DNA of 51,873 nucleotides from contig JAUXWU010000032.1 in the NCBI GenBank assembly GCA_030680085.1, positions 1 to 51,873 of the forward strand, written 5' to 3'. This DNA is from Rhodocyclaceae bacterium (GTDB taxonomy: Bacteria; Pseudomonadota; Gammaproteobacteria; Burkholderiales; Rhodocyclaceae). The position numbers and the translations under genes were made by a program. Numbering within the stretch: the first letter of the stretch is position 1; each line of letters opens with the position of its first letter. This document shows positions 4,337 through 18,643 of this stretch, piece by piece. Under the pieces are notes generated by a model. It saw nothing but the letters and a program-made list of their open reading frames with translations. It did not search any database and was not told the origin of the DNA.

Positions 4337-5128
4337 ATGAAGGCAGTGATCTTCGACGTCGACGGGACGCTGGCCGACACGGAGGAGGCGCACCGCGCGG
4401 CCTTCAACGCCACCTTCCGACAGTTTGGCTTGCCGTGGGAGTGGGATGCGGCGCTCTATCGCGAGCTGCTCGCCGTCACTGGCGGCAAGGAACGCATGCG
4501 GCATTTTTGCGAGCGTTGCTTTCCGGATTTTCTTGAAGATCCGCAAGCGGGTTCCACCATCGCCACCTTGCATCGGGAAAAGACCCGGCACTACGCCGGT
4601 CTGGTCGCGGCGGGCGGAGTCGCGGCGCGCCCCGGCGTCGTGCGGCTGATTCGCGAACTGCGCGCAGCCGGCATCCGGCTTGCCATCGCCACGACCACCT
4701 CGCGCAGCAACGTGGATGCGCTGCTTGCCTCAAGCCTCAAGACGCTGCCGCCGGATACTTTTGCGGTGATCGGCGCAGCCGAGCAGGCCGCCGCCAAGAA
4801 ACCGGCGTCCGACATCTATCTGTGGGTGCTGGAACGGCTCGGTCTGCCGCCGCAGGACTGCCTCGCCATCGAGGATTCGAGGAATGGCGTGCGGGCCGCG
4901 ACCAGCGCCGGCATTCCAACGCTGGTCACCGAATGCGCGTGGACGGCCGGAGAAGACTTCTCCGGGGCGCTGGCCGTGCTCTCCGATCTGGGTGAGCCGG
5001 AGCGTCCCTATACGCTGGTGAGCGGTCCGCCCAACGGCATTGGCTACGTCGATGTCGTGGTACTGCGCCGCTGGCATTGGAAATCCATTCATCAGCACGC
5101 CGTCCCGCCAGCGCCGACTTTCGAGTGA
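4337..5128 (+). CDS. cbbY: HAD-family hydrolase, CbbY-like; C-terminus ends in [10 protein letters not shown] from a dispersed repeat
   Basis: MKAVIFDVDGTLADTEEAHRAAFNATF, DSRNGVRAA. Confidence 0.8.
   Translation: MKAVIFDVDGTLADTEEAHRAAFNATFRQFGLPWEWDAALYRELLAVTGGKERMRHFCERCFPDFLEDPQAGSTIATLHREKTRHYAGLVAAGGVAARPGVVRLIRELRAAGIRLAIATTTSRSNVDALLASSLKTLPPDTFAVIGAAEQAAAKKPASDIYLWVLERLGLPPQDCLAIEDSRNGVRAATSAGIPTLVTECAWTAGEDFSGALAVLSDLGEPERPYTLVSGPPNGIGYVDVVVLRRWHWKSIHQHAVPPAPTFE
5099..5121 (+). repeat. dispersed 23-bp element GCCGTCCCGCCAGCGCCGACTTT
   Basis: Exact copy; in-frame end of cbbY. Confidence 0.95.
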
Positions 5129-10604: not shown

Positions 10605-10627
10605 GCCGTCCCGCCAGCGCCGACTTT
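10605..10627 (+). repeat. dispersed 23-bp element
   Basis: Exact copy; between the CBS-gene stop and mnhG start. Confidence 0.95.
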
Positions 10628-10646
10628 CATGCGATTTTCCAGAAGA

Positions 10647-11270
10647 TCATCGCCACAGGCTCAGCGGCGGATCGGCGACCACCGCGCGCAGGATGTCGCT
10701 GCGCGAGAGGAAACCGATCAGACGTCTGCTGTCGTCGGTGATCGGCACGCCGTCGACGTCATGGTCGAGCATGACGGTGGCGATCAGACGGATGTCGGTC
10801 TGCGCCGTGGCGGTCACCACCGGCGTGGTCATGACATCACGCACCCGTCGGCTGAGGGATTCGACGATGCGGCCGGCGTCGATATTGATCGCGGTCAGCA
10901 GGTCACGTTCGCTGACGATGCCAACCAGCCGCGCGCTGTCGTCTTGCACCGGCGCCTGGTGGATGCGGTGATCGCGCAGGGTGCGCCAGGCCTGCGCGAC
11001 ATCGTCGCTGGCGGCGACGGTGATCACCTGACGCTGCATGACCTGGTCGGCGTGATAGAGCGGGCCGCGTTCCTGGTCGTGATGAATCATTTCCTGGTAG
11101 GCGCGGATCGCCTCCGCGCGGGGAGGACTCGCCATCACCTCAACGCCGGGTTCTTCGCCCTCTTTGGCGATGGGACGCACCGCGCGCAAGTTGTGGAGCT
11201 GGCGCACCCGCTTGAGTTCTTCCAGCGAGCCTCTGAAGACCGGCCCGGACATGCCGTAAATGGAAAACAT
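10647..11270 (-). CDS. CBS domain-pair protein
   Basis: Two CBS repeats (IHQAPVQDDSARLVGIVSERDLL, VDGVPITDDSRRLIGFLSRSDIL). Confidence 0.9.
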   Translation of the reverse strand: MFSIYGMSGPVFRGSLEELKRVRQLHNLRAVRPIAKEGEEPGVEVMASPPRAEAIRAYQEMIHHDQERGPLYHADQVMQRQVITVAASDDVAQAWRTLRDHRIHQAPVQDDSARLVGIVSERDLLTAINIDAGRIVESLSRRVRDVMTTPVVTATAQTDIRLIATVMLDHDVDGVPITDDSRRLIGFLSRSDILRAVVADPPLSLWR

Positions 11271-11285: not shown

Positions 11286-14006
11286 CTACCGCCGCCCGAG
11301 GGTGAGGAGGCGCAGACCCAGCTTGCGCAGCTCTTCCAGAATCAGGACGCTCGACGCGATCGCCGTCGCCAGCAGCCAGTCGTCGAGGCTGAGGTCGACG
11401 GTGTCGAAGATCGCCTGCGCCGGCCCCCAATGCACGGCGACGATTTGCAAGCCGACGACCGCGGCGAGCGCGAGCCAAAGCTTATTGTTGGCGAAGATCT
11501 GGCGGTTGAAGGCGCTGCCGTGCTCGTTCCTGGCGTTGAAGATGTTGAAGAACTGGAACAGCACGAAGGTGGTGAAGGCCAGCGTCACCGCATAGTCATG
11601 GCCGCCCGTTTGCTCGCCCCAATAGTAAGCGGCGAGCGTGCCGACCGCCATGGTGAAGCCGTAGAGCCCCAGGCGCGCCAGGCGCGTGCCGGTCAGGATG
11701 TTGGCGTCCGGTTGGCGCGGCTTCGAGCGCATGATGCCGGGGCGCGCGGGCTCGACGCCGAGCGTCATGGCGGGCGGCCCGTCCATGATGATATTCACCC
11801 AGAGGATCTGGATGGCGGTAAAGGGCGTCGGCATGCCGAATAGCGGCGCGCCGAGCACGGTGAGGATCGCGCCGATGTTGGTGGAGAGCTGGAAGCGCAC
11901 GAACTTGACGATGTTGTCGTAGATGGTGCGGCCTTCCTCGACCGCGTGCACGATGCTGGCGAAGTTGTCGTCGGTGAGCACCAGCGTCGCGGCCTCCTTG
12001 GTGACCTCGGTGCCGGTGATGCCCATGGCGACGCCGATGTCGGCGGTCTTCAGCGCCGGCGCGTCGTTGACGCCGTCGCCGGTCATCGCGACGACGTGGC
12101 CGCGCGACTTGAGCGCCTCGACGATGCGCAGCTTGTGCTCGGGGGAGACGCGGGCGAAGACGGTGGTGCCATCGACCATTTCGGCCAGCGCCGCGCCGGT
12201 GAGGCCTTCGATCTCGCGGCCCTCACGCACAACACCGCGCACCGCGCCGCCGGCTGTTCCGAGCAGGCCCAGATCGCGGGCGATTGCGGCGGCGGTGATC
12301 CGGTGGTCGCCGGTGATCATTTTCACGGTGATGCCGGCGGTGTGGCAGATGTGAATGGCTTGTTTCGCCTCGGGGCGCGGCGGGTCGATGATGCCGACCA
12401 AAGCGATGAGGGTCAGTTCGTCAGCCCAGCGCAGCAGGTCGCCGGCGGGGTCGAAGTCCGCCGCCGGGATGCTGCGGCCGGCCAGGGCGAGCACGCGCAG
12501 GGCTTCCTCGGCGAAGGCGATATTCTCGGCCGCAAAGGTGGCGCGGGCGGCGTCGTCGATGGCCAGCTTGCCGCTCGTGGCGAGATAGCTGCCGGCACGG
12601 GCGAGCAGCACGTCGGGCGCGCCCTTTACCCACATGCGCACGACGGCGCCGTCATGGTGAAAGGTGGCCATGAACTTGTTGGCCGAATCGAAGGGAATCT
12701 CGGCAATGCGTGGCTGACGTTCGTGGATCGACTCAATCGCGCCATCCGGCATGGTCTTGGCGGCCAGCGCCAGCAACGCGCCCTCGGTCGGGTCGCCGAT
12801 CAGTTTGCCGTCCCTGATGCGGGCATCCGCGCACAGCACCGCCGGGTCGCGCAGGCTGTCCAGCTCGGGCGCGGGCTGGCCGTCTTCGGCAGTGATCTGG
12901 CCTTCCCCCCGGTAACCTTCGCCGCTCACGGCAAAGCGGCGGCCCATGTAAAACACGCGGCGCGCCGTCATCTGGTTGAGGGTCAGCGTGCCGGTCTTGA
13001 CGGAACAGATCACTGTCGTGCAGCCCAGCGTTTCCACCGCCGCCAGCTTCTTGACGATGGCATGGCGCTTCGCCATGCGGTGCATGCCCAGCGCCAGCGT
13101 GACAGTCACGACCGCCGGCAAGCCTTCGGGGATCGCCGCCACCGCCAGCGCAATCGCGGTCATCGCCGTCTTCACCAGGTCGTCGCCGCGCAGGATGCCG
13201 ATCACGAAAATCAGCGTCACGACAGCACCGGCGATCGCGGCGAGGCGCTTGCCCAGCCGGTCGAGCTGCACCTGCAAGGGCGTTGCCGATTCGGCGGCCT
13301 CGGCCAGCAGGCCGGCGATCTTGCCCATCTCCGTCTGCATGCCGGTGGCGGTGACGATGGCCTCGATGCGGCCGCGCGTCACCACGGTGTTCATGAAGAC
13401 CATGCCACGCCGTTCCGCCAGCGCCGACTTTGCATCGACCGTTTCCGGCGTCTTCGCCACGGCGTGCGACTCGCCGGTGAGCGCGGCCTCCGCCACCTCG
13501 GCCGAATGGGCGTGGAGCACGCGCGCGTCGGCCGGGATGCGGTCGCCCGCTTCGAGCAACAGGATGTCGCCCGGCACCAGGTCGACTGCCTGGATCAGCG
13601 CGGTGTGGCCGTCGCGGCGCACCCGCGCGATGGGCGCCAGCATGTTCTTGAGCGCCGCCAGCGCTGCCTCGGCGCGGTGTTCCTGAAAGAAGCCGAGCGT
13701 GGCGTTGAGCAGCACCACGATGACGATGACGATGGAATCCTTGAGTTCCCCGACCGCGCCGGCCAGCACCGCGGCGCCGATCAGGACGATGACCAGGAAG
13801 TTCTTGAACTGGTCGAGGAACTTCAGCCAGGCCGGGCGCGGCGGCTTTTCGGCGAGCTGGTTCGGGCCGTATTGCGCCAGACGCGCCGTGGCGGCGGCGG
13901 CGGGCAGGCCGCGCGCGGGGTCGCAGTCGAGTTCGGCCGCGACCCGCTCGGCCGGGAGGGCGTGCCAGGATGGAGCAGCCGGAACGGTGTTCATGGGGGT
14001 GTGCAT
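11286..14006 (-). CDS. P-type (P2A-like) cation-transporting ATPase; catalytic DKTGTLT reads VKTGTLT
   Basis: LTGES, AIPEGLPAVVTVTLALG, MTGDGVNDAPALK; CSVKTGTLT in place of CSDKTGTLT. Confidence 0.95.
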   Translation of the reverse strand: MHTPMNTVPAAPSWHALPAERVAAELDCDPARGLPAAAATARLAQYGPNQLAEKPPRPAWLKFLDQFKNFLVIVLIGAAVLAGAVGELKDSIVIVIVVLLNATLGFFQEHRAEAALAALKNMLAPIARVRRDGHTALIQAVDLVPGDILLLEAGDRIPADARVLHAHSAEVAEAALTGESHAVAKTPETVDAKSALAERRGMVFMNTVVTRGRIEAIVTATGMQTEMGKIAGLLAEAAESATPLQVQLDRLGKRLAAIAGAVVTLIFVIGILRGDDLVKTAMTAIALAVAAIPEGLPAVVTVTLALGMHRMAKRHAIVKKLAAVETLGCTTVICSVKTGTLTLNQMTARRVFYMGRRFAVSGEGYRGEGQITAEDGQPAPELDSLRDPAVLCADARIRDGKLIGDPTEGALLALAAKTMPDGAIESIHERQPRIAEIPFDSANKFMATFHHDGAVVRMWVKGAPDVLLARAGSYLATSGKLAIDDAARATFAAENIAFAEEALRVLALAGRSIPAADFDPAGDLLRWADELTLIALVGIIDPPRPEAKQAIHICHTAGITVKMITGDHRITAAAIARDLGLLGTAGGAVRGVVREGREIEGLTGAALAEMVDGTTVFARVSPEHKLRIVEALKSRGHVVAMTGDGVNDAPALKTADIGVAMGITGTEVTKEAATLVLTDDNFASIVHAVEEGRTIYDNIVKFVRFQLSTNIGAILTVLGAPLFGMPTPFTAIQILWVNIIMDGPPAMTLGVEPARPGIMRSKPRQPDANILTGTRLARLGLYGFTMAVGTLAAYYWGEQTGGHDYAVTLAFTTFVLFQFFNIFNARNEHGSAFNRQIFANNKLWLALAAVVGLQIVAVHWGPAQAIFDTVDLSLDDWLLATAIASSVLILEELRKLGLRLLTLGRR
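13409..13431 (+). repeat. dispersed 23-bp element-like (22/23)
   Basis: gccgttccgccagcgccgacttt within the P-type ATPase CDS; may be coincidence with LAER-type coding. Confidence 0.5.
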
Positions 14007-14944
14007 CAGACAGTTACCAGGGTAGCAAAAATGAAAACGCCATACATGGCGATGAGCAGCAGACCGCGCCCGCGCGGAATCATGCCGACGCGGTTGGGCA
14101 GCAAAAGCAGCAGCGCGGCAACGCCGCAGGCCAGGGTGACCATGATCTCGGCCGGTGGGACGGAGATCGGATGAATGCTGGCCGCCACGCCGACAATCGC
14201 CAGCCCGTTGAACAGGTTGCTGCCGATCAGCGTGCCGATCCCCACCTCGTCATGTCCGCGCAGGCGCGACAGGATAACCGTGACCAGTTCCGGCAAGGTG
14301 GTGCCGATGGCGACCACGAGCACGCCTATGACATAGGTATCGATCCCGAAAGCCGCCGCGACGCCGGTGGCGCCGCCGACGAACAGCCTTCCTGCCGCGA
14401 TCAGGGCAAAAAGTCCGAAAATGCCCAGGAGCAGGGTCGGCCAGGGTCCGAGGTCCGCGGGCTGCCGATCCGGCATGCGCTCCCGATGGCGCCGCGCCGC
14501 GTGCAGGCTGAGGCCGAGCCAGGCCGCGAACAGCACCAGCAGCGTCGCGCCCTCGCCGCGCCCGATGCGCCCGTCCAGCGCGAAAACCAGGGTCAGAAGC
14601 GGCACGGCCAGCGCCAGCACGAAATCGCGGCCGAATTCCTTGCGCGTGAAGCGGATCGCCCCGAACAGCAGGGCCAGGCCGAAGATCAGGGCGATGTTGA
14701 TGACGTTGCTGCCCAGCGCATTGCCCAGCCCGAGTTCGGGGCGGCCGGAAAGCGCCGCGACGGTGGCGACGGTCAGTTCCGGACTGGAGGTCGCAAACGC
14801 CGCCAGTATGGTGGCGACCACAGCCTTGGGCACCCGCAGATGCACGGCCGCGCCAAGGATGGACTTGAGAAAAGCCTCGCCGCCGACGCCCGCCAGTATG
14901 ATGGCGCCGAGCACCGCGAGCAGGTCGTTGGCGGAAATAGTCAT
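14006..14944 (-). CDS. calcium/sodium antiporter (CaCA family)
   Basis: Two alpha repeats (FATSSPELTVATVAALSGRPELGLGNALGSNVINI; AIGTTLPELVTVILSRLRGHDEVGIGTLIGSNLFN). Confidence 0.9.
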   Translation of the reverse strand: MTISANDLLAVLGAIILAGVGGEAFLKSILGAAVHLRVPKAVVATILAAFATSSPELTVATVAALSGRPELGLGNALGSNVINIALIFGLALLFGAIRFTRKEFGRDFVLALAVPLLTLVFALDGRIGRGEGATLLVLFAAWLGLSLHAARRHRERMPDRQPADLGPWPTLLLGIFGLFALIAAGRLFVGGATGVAAAFGIDTYVIGVLVVAIGTTLPELVTVILSRLRGHDEVGIGTLIGSNLFNGLAIVGVAASIHPISVPPAEIMVTLACGVAALLLLLPNRVGMIPRGRGLLLIAMYGVFIFATLVTV

Positions 14945-16858: not shown

Positions 16859-17734
16859 TTACTGCGCTGCCTTGAGTGCGGCGATGCGCTCTTCCAGCGG
16901 CGGATGCGTCATGAACAGGCGCTTGATGCCACCGCCCCCACCACCGGCAATGCCGAAGGCCGCCATCTTGTCGGGCAGGGGCGCAGGATGCAGAGCATTC
17001 AGGCGCTCCAGCGCGGCGATCATGTTTTTCCGCCCGGCCAGGCTGGCGCCGCCGCGATCGGCGCGAAACTCGCGCTGGCGCGAGAACCACATGACGATGA
17101 TCGAGGCGAGAACGCCCAGCACCAGTTCGGCGATGATCATCGTGACGAAAAAGGCCGGGCCGTGCCCGCGCTCGTTCTTGAAGATCACCCGGTCGACGGT
17201 GTGGCCGATCACGCGCGAAAGGAACATGACGAAGGTATTTACCACGCCCTGGATCAGGGCCATCGTCACCATGTCGCCGTTGGCGGCGTGGGCGACTTCA
17301 TGGCCCAGCACCGCCTCGGCTTCCGGCCGGGTCATCTGCTGGAGTAGTCCCGTTGAAACGGCGATCAGCGAACTGTTTTTGGTCATGCCGGTGGCGAAGG
17401 CGTTGACGTCGGGTGAATCGAAAATCCCCACCTCGGGCATCTTGATGCCGGCTGTCGTCGAGTATTTCCGGACGGTTTCCACCAGCCAGAACTCGGTCGA
17501 ATTCGCCGGCGCCTCGATCACCTGCACGCCCATCGACTTCTTCACCGTCCATTTGGAGATGGCCAGCGAAATGAACGCACCGCCGAAGCCCATCACCGCC
17601 GCGAAAATCAGCAGCGAGGTGAGATTCAGCCCCTGGGCCGTCAGATAGGGCTCCACGCCCAGCAGGCGCATGGTGACGGATAGCACCAGCAAAATCGCCA
17701 TGTTGGTGCCGAGGAAGAGCAGGGTACGTTTCAT
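16859..17734 (-). CDS. htpX: HtpX membrane zinc metalloprotease
   Basis: [18 protein letters not shown] zinc motif, typical N-terminus. Confidence 0.95.
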
Positions 17735-17759
17735 GGATGGGTTCTCCTTACGTAATCAA

Positions 17760-18455
17760 TCAGTCGCTGCTGTTCATGAAACCCAGCAGATGCAGCAGGC
17801 TGGTGAAGAGGTTGAAAATGGCGACGAACAGGGTGACCGTCGCCATCACGTAGTTGGTTTCCCCGCCGTGGATGATGTTGCTGGTCTCGTAGAGGATCAA
17901 GCCGGACATCAGCAGGACGAAAACCGCCGAAACCGTCAGTGACAGCGCCGGGATTTCAAAAAAGATCGCCCCCAGACCCGCCAGGAAGGCAACCAGGATG
18001 CCGACCATCAGGAAACCGCCCATGAAGCTGAAGTCCTTCTTCGTGGTCAGCGCATAGCCGGACAGGCCAAGGAAGATCGCGGCGGTGCCGCCCATGGCCG
18101 TCATCACGGTTTGACCGCCGTTGGGCAGCCCGAGGTAATGGCTGACGATGGGGCCGAGCGTGTAGCCCATGAAGCCGGTGAGGGCGAAGACGGAGACGAT
18201 GCCCCAGCCGCTGTTGCGCAGTTTGGCGGTGAGGAACAGCAGGCCGAAATAGCCCACCAGGGTGATGATCAGGCCGGGGTGCGGCAGCTTCAGCGCCACC
18301 GACGTGGCGGCCGTGACGGCAGCAAACAGCAGCGTCATCGACAGCAGCATGTAAGTGTTGCGGATCACCCGGTTGCTGGCCAGTACGGATTCAATAGCGC
18401 TGATGTTGACATTGTCGCTGGCGTTGCCCGTGGGCAGGGAGTGAATGGAACTCAT
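17760..18455 (-). CDS. Bax inhibitor-1/YccA family membrane protein
   Basis: 7-TM protein with FGLTGY-like motifs and C-terminal LLHLLGFMNSSD; upstream ORF extension rejected. Confidence 0.9.
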   Translation of the reverse strand: MSSIHSLPTGNASDNVNISAIESVLASNRVIRNTYMLLSMTLLFAAVTAATSVALKLPHPGLIITLVGYFGLLFLTAKLRNSGWGIVSVFALTGFMGYTLGPIVSHYLGLPNGGQTVMTAMGGTAAIFLGLSGYALTTKKDFSFMGGFLMVGILVAFLAGLGAIFFEIPALSLTVSAVFVLLMSGLILYETSNIIHGGETNYVMATVTLFVAIFNLFTSLLHLLGFMNSSD

Positions 18456-18643
18456 GGTGCTCTCCTTTTCAAATGGACCGATATGCTGGTTCGGGTTCTC
18501 AGTCGTGAGTGCCCAATCCGCACTATATATGCAGGCAGGCATCAATAGCTGCAAGGGGGCGATGATAGGGCAGGCTGATTCATCCGACAATTCGAATATA
18601 AACAATAAATACATCGCTATATTCGATGTATATGGCGGATATC

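Follow-up and report, generated by a model that had tools for sequence, protein, structure and literature searches.

A valine codon at the phosphorylation site of an otherwise ordinary P2A-type ATPase gene from a Rhodocyclaceae bacterium: probably a consensus error or a very recent mutation

P-type pumps depend on an invariant aspartate that is phosphorylated and dephosphorylated during the transport cycle (PMC10654040). We analysed a stretch of 51,873 nucleotides from a Rhodocyclaceae bacterium (hereafter, the window) in which the assembled gene for such a pump encodes valine at this position. Its phosphorylation motif reads CSVKTGTLT (local peptide CTTVICSVKTGTLTLNQ), and the codon responsible for V336 is G-T-C, in frame at positions 13001-13000-12999. 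GTC differs from GAC by one base, an A-to-T change on the coding strand. The altered base apart, the gene appears from its sequence to be ordinary and not a new kind of pump, and nothing we saw points to a new function under selection. We consider it very likely that an ordinary pump gene has here acquired a single isolated change, either as an error of the consensus sequence or as a very recent inactivating mutation.

The reading frame is open across all 906 residues (minus strand, 14006-11286). Pfam recognised E1-E2_ATPase, Cation_ATPase_N/C and HAD hydrolase domains in the product (PF00122, PF00689, PF00690, PF13246 and PF00702), and the best NCBIfam model was TIGR01522 (PMR1-type Ca2+ ATPase), at 749.3 bits, which lies below the curated cut-off of 798.3 bits and hence short of an equivalog assignment. 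SPCA1 and LMCA1 were the nearest solved structures in a PDB search. The protein has the A, N, P and M domains and the TGES, KGAP, DPPR, TGD and TGDGVND motifs of the P-type superfamily, and lacks, as assembled, the phosphorylated aspartate of DKTGT. It belongs to the superfamily by descent, without the catalytic residue that defines it. Its features suggest an ordinary P2A-type efflux pump for Ca2+, or possibly for Ca2+ and Mn2+, under normal purifying selection. Open frames on the plus strand that overlap the gene resemble GC-rich shadow ORFs and were not counted as genes.

Coordinates of the pump gene, its motifs and its immediate neighbours in the window
Feature	Position	Strand	Basis or remark
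P2A-type (SPCA/LMCA1-like) cation-transporting ATPase gene	11286..14006	-	906 aa, full-length ORF
Codon 336, GTC (Val) replacing GAC/GAT (Asp) phosphorylation site	12999..13001	-	Sequence; Asp in 77/77 distinct orthologs
KTGTLT, rest of phosphorylation motif, residues 337-342, intact	12981..12998	-	Sequence and ortholog alignment
TGES dephosphorylation loop, residues 177-180, intact	13467..13478	-	E179 in 76/76 orthologs covering the site
PEGLP ion-site motif of M4, residues 293-297, intact	13116..13130	-	Ortholog alignment
TGDGVNDAP hinge and Mg2+ site, residues 642-650, intact	12057..12083	-	Ortholog alignment
NIIMDGPPA in M6, residues 738-746, intact; includes N738 and D742, Ca2+ ligands of site II	11769..11795	-	Ortholog alignment
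CaCA antiporter gene (Na+/Ca2+ exchanger family), immediate upstream neighbour of the pump	14006..14944	-	PF01699; TIGR00367 just below cut-off
CBS-domain protein gene, directly downstream of the pump	10647..11270	-	PF00571

The machinery around the altered codon is preserved. The dephosphorylation-loop glutamate, the PEGLP glutamate, the ATP-site lysine, the aspartates of DPPR and TGD, the hinge aspartates and the M6 ligands are all intact, and both motifs that form Ca2+ site II in P2A pumps (PEGLP in M4, NxxxD in M6) are present, with E294, N738 and D742 conserved among orthologs. M5 has alanine at the position of SERCA E771, the site-I glutamate, as do all 77 orthologs, implying a single ion site (site II). 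The original prediction had located the valine codon and described it correctly, and TGES (177), PEGLP (293), TGDGVNDAP (642) and the full-length frame are likewise present as it claimed.

Two groups of characterized pumps serve for comparison. The SPCA/PMR1-type Ca2+(Mn2+)-ATPases (human ATP2C1; TIGR01522) share the pump's domain order and motifs and supply its best PDB match (8iwp, E 5e-184); the pump differs from them in having valine for the phosphorylated aspartate and in its sub-cut-off TIGR01522 score. LMCA1 (lmo0841) of Listeria monocytogenes is a bacterial P2A Ca2+-ATPase that also matches closely (E ~1e-175). The TGES loops of the two proteins correspond, Glu292 (PEGLP) and Asn716 (M6) of LMCA1 are equivalent to E294 and N738, whereas Asp334, the residue at which LMCA1 is phosphorylated (PMC11977196), is equivalent to V336.

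To place the valine in context, the protein was aligned with homologs from its genus (18 other genomes) and with homologs from 80 loci in named genomes; 77 distinct sequences with at least 55% identity made up the ortholog set. Aspartate occupies position 336 in every ortholog (GAC in 74, GAT in 3) and in every other homolog aligned over that position. Orthologs from the same genus and from Rhodocyclaceae/Sulfuritalea (L011/L040, L012, L013 and L042), which are ~81-87% identical to the pump over almost its whole length, have GAC or GAT where the pump has its valine codon. The comparison with related genomes that had been proposed as a check returned aspartate throughout. Of the 906 columns, 368 reach at least 90% conservation among the orthologs, and the pump departs privately from these at position 336 only; orthologs handled identically show a mean of ~3 such departures.

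We extended this search with codon patterns, which fix the flanking residues (Cys, one WSN-coded residue, then KTGT-L/F-T), omit Glu and are not exhaustive. Since the aspartate version of the pattern matched 16 of the 19 genus genomes, the approach works. No second valine was found at the codon in the family (298 further genomes); alanine, glycine or valine gave no match in the order (398 further genomes), nor did codons starting with a base other than G in the class (273 further genomes). A valine common to relatives was accordingly rejected, none having appeared among the fetched homologs or in any of these scans.

Substitution rates indicate that the gene has been constrained like its orthologs. 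Pairwise dN/dS between the pump and its three nearest orthologs was 0.18-0.19, compared with 0.13-0.19 among those three themselves; together with the counts of private changes, this gives no support to relaxed selection. With its open frame, its one private change in 368 conserved columns and this dN/dS, the gene does not resemble a decaying pseudogene. Nor does it resemble a member of a pseudoenzyme clade, the loss being common to no relative and accompanied by no other active-site change. In a simple timing model, random missense changes in an unconstrained gene strike conserved columns ~40% of the time. At the 5% level, and with none seen besides 336, at most ~6 further random missense changes can have occurred since any loss of constraint, corresponding to at most ~1.3% of the branch, measured as the neutral change expected after divergence from the nearest ortholog; this estimate assigns half of the pairwise dS to each branch. 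Because no other conserved column has changed, V336 is likely to be either not real or extremely young. Ancient repurposing is disfavoured: a protein that had changed its role early should have eroded further, and the model allows at most ~1.3% of the branch since constraint was lost.

These data suggest a gene that evolved under normal purifying selection and then underwent, or appears to have undergone, a single A-to-T change at the catalytic codon. The change may be absent from the organism, having arisen as an error in base calling, in assembly or in the consensus of mixed strains, or it may be too recent for other decay to have followed. Both a base-call error and a very recent mutation had been anticipated in the original prediction, and an isolated one-base change without further decay fits either. 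We regard artefact and real mutation as about equally probable, a split that is our judgement and not a computed figure.

If the base is a sequencing, assembly or mixed-strain consensus error, the organism carries GAC and the pump is normal. We give this explanation close to an even chance. The singleton nature of a one-base change that falls on the one indispensable residue speaks in its favour, as do the unchanged remainder of the conserved columns and the lack of a second occurrence among homologs or in the family, order and class scans. So does the state of the source assembly, which is fragmented into 225 contigs with 96.6% completeness and 3.2% contamination, a profile suggestive of a metagenome-assembled genome, and which probably includes a foreign contig. 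This contig, C112 (L120, G000:C112:1-3980), carries a truncated pump (to residue ~210, with an internal 12-aa deletion) fused to the tail of an IS4-family transposase. Its first 1510 bp match a contig of Sulfuritalea bin.273 (L042), a different species, at 99.8% identity, and the pump loci of that bin share only ~80-82% DNA identity with the window; for this reason C112 is probably a mis-binned contaminant. Because of this match, the truncated pump was rejected as evidence of paralog loss in the source lineage.

Against a consensus error, the neighbouring genes show no general excess of private changes: DnaB, HtpX and a 282-aa protein have none at conserved columns, and the less conserved TerB-like, CBS and CaCA neighbours have a few, within the control range, in alignments that are small. 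The first three do not support a generally error-ridden contig. The length of the contig (at least 51.9 kb) also speaks against very low coverage. Clean neighbouring genes are nevertheless compatible with one wrong base.

The other main explanation, that the valine is real and stems from an inactivating mutation that arose very recently and is either fixed or segregating among the cells sampled, with the pump dead and other systems exporting Ca2+, has in our estimation somewhat less than an even chance. GAC to GTC needs one base only. Laboratory mutants of SERCA and Na,K-ATPase in which the catalytic aspartate is replaced are expected to form no phosphoenzyme and to carry out no transport; those substitutions were engineered, whereas the valine of this pump is a natural or spurious sequence in which the same residue is lost. 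Since valine has no carboxylate, the assembled protein would form no aspartyl-phosphate, and transport should be lost while ATP and Ca2+ binding are kept, making the gene a fresh null allele. Both this loss and its recency are inferred, the former from the established P-type mechanism, and the earlier claim of a dead pump accordingly stands only if the base is real. Some residual, uncoupled ATP hydrolysis by the valine protein is conceivable by analogy with other P-type domains.

A real loss could be tolerated if Ca2+ export were carried by the CaCA-family antiporter encoded directly upstream, which could cover for the pump. Compensation by a second intact pump was considered and rejected: a codon-pattern scan of the assembled genome found no second intact pump with a matching P2-type aspartate motif, and the other P2-type ATPase found, on contig C69, is a broken remnant that lacks residues ~149-679. 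This remnant (L121, G000:C69, ~17500-18600) runs straight from residues ~31-148 into ~679-895 and contains an internal TAA. With no other matching aspartate motif and a broken remnant, such pumps may matter little to the lineage, which would favour a real mutation. The absence of decay elsewhere in the gene counts against it, in that the mutation would have to be extremely young, within the limit given above.

A selected pseudo-ATPase, in which the valine protein is maintained as a non-pumping sensor or regulator that binds Ca2+ and ATP, is very improbable: the full frame and ligand sites are kept, and isolated soluble N/P domains of PfATP4 hydrolyse ATP with D451N (PMC12152296), showing that P-type ATP-binding domains can retain some activity without the aspartate, but that case concerns a soluble fragment with Asn in place of Val and no transport, the valine occurs in no relative, no compensating or extra changes appear at conserved sites, and machinery that is useless without the aspartate (TGES, the hinge Asp) is still conserved. 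The suggestion of a repurposed sensor is disfavoured on these grounds and by the ortholog-like selection on the gene. A valine allele that was real and maintained would represent a rare case of a natural pump lacking its phosphorylation site, and would offer a test of non-transport roles for P-type ATPases; the evidence does not point to such an allele. More generally, when a fragmented assembly of probable metagenomic origin shows a one-base oddity at a catalytic residue that is otherwise invariant, the reads and relatives should be inspected first.

The local genomic context of the pump consists of genes for ion transport and stress. Between 7196 and 17734 these encode a Na+/sulfate-type symporter, a DUF2062 protein, an MnhG-like antiporter subunit, the CBS-domain protein, the CaCA antiporter and a TerB/DUF533-like protein, followed by HtpX. 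The CBS-domain neighbour is common to L011, L012 and L013, and in a related betaproteobacterial genome (L082, 2045-4957) two CaCA antiporter genes lie in tandem directly upstream of the pump ortholog. The window also contains a short interspersed repeat, CGTCCCGCCAGCGCCGACTTTCATG, in 8 copies at up to 3 mismatches (0 expected): one at 10607-10631, between the MnhG-like and CBS-domain genes, and others at 5101, 7110, 20169, 31376, 35544, 44582 and 47635. The genome as a whole holds 62 copies at up to 2 mismatches. The repeat is REP-like, and similar matches of 25-34 bp recur at numerous positions in two related genomes.
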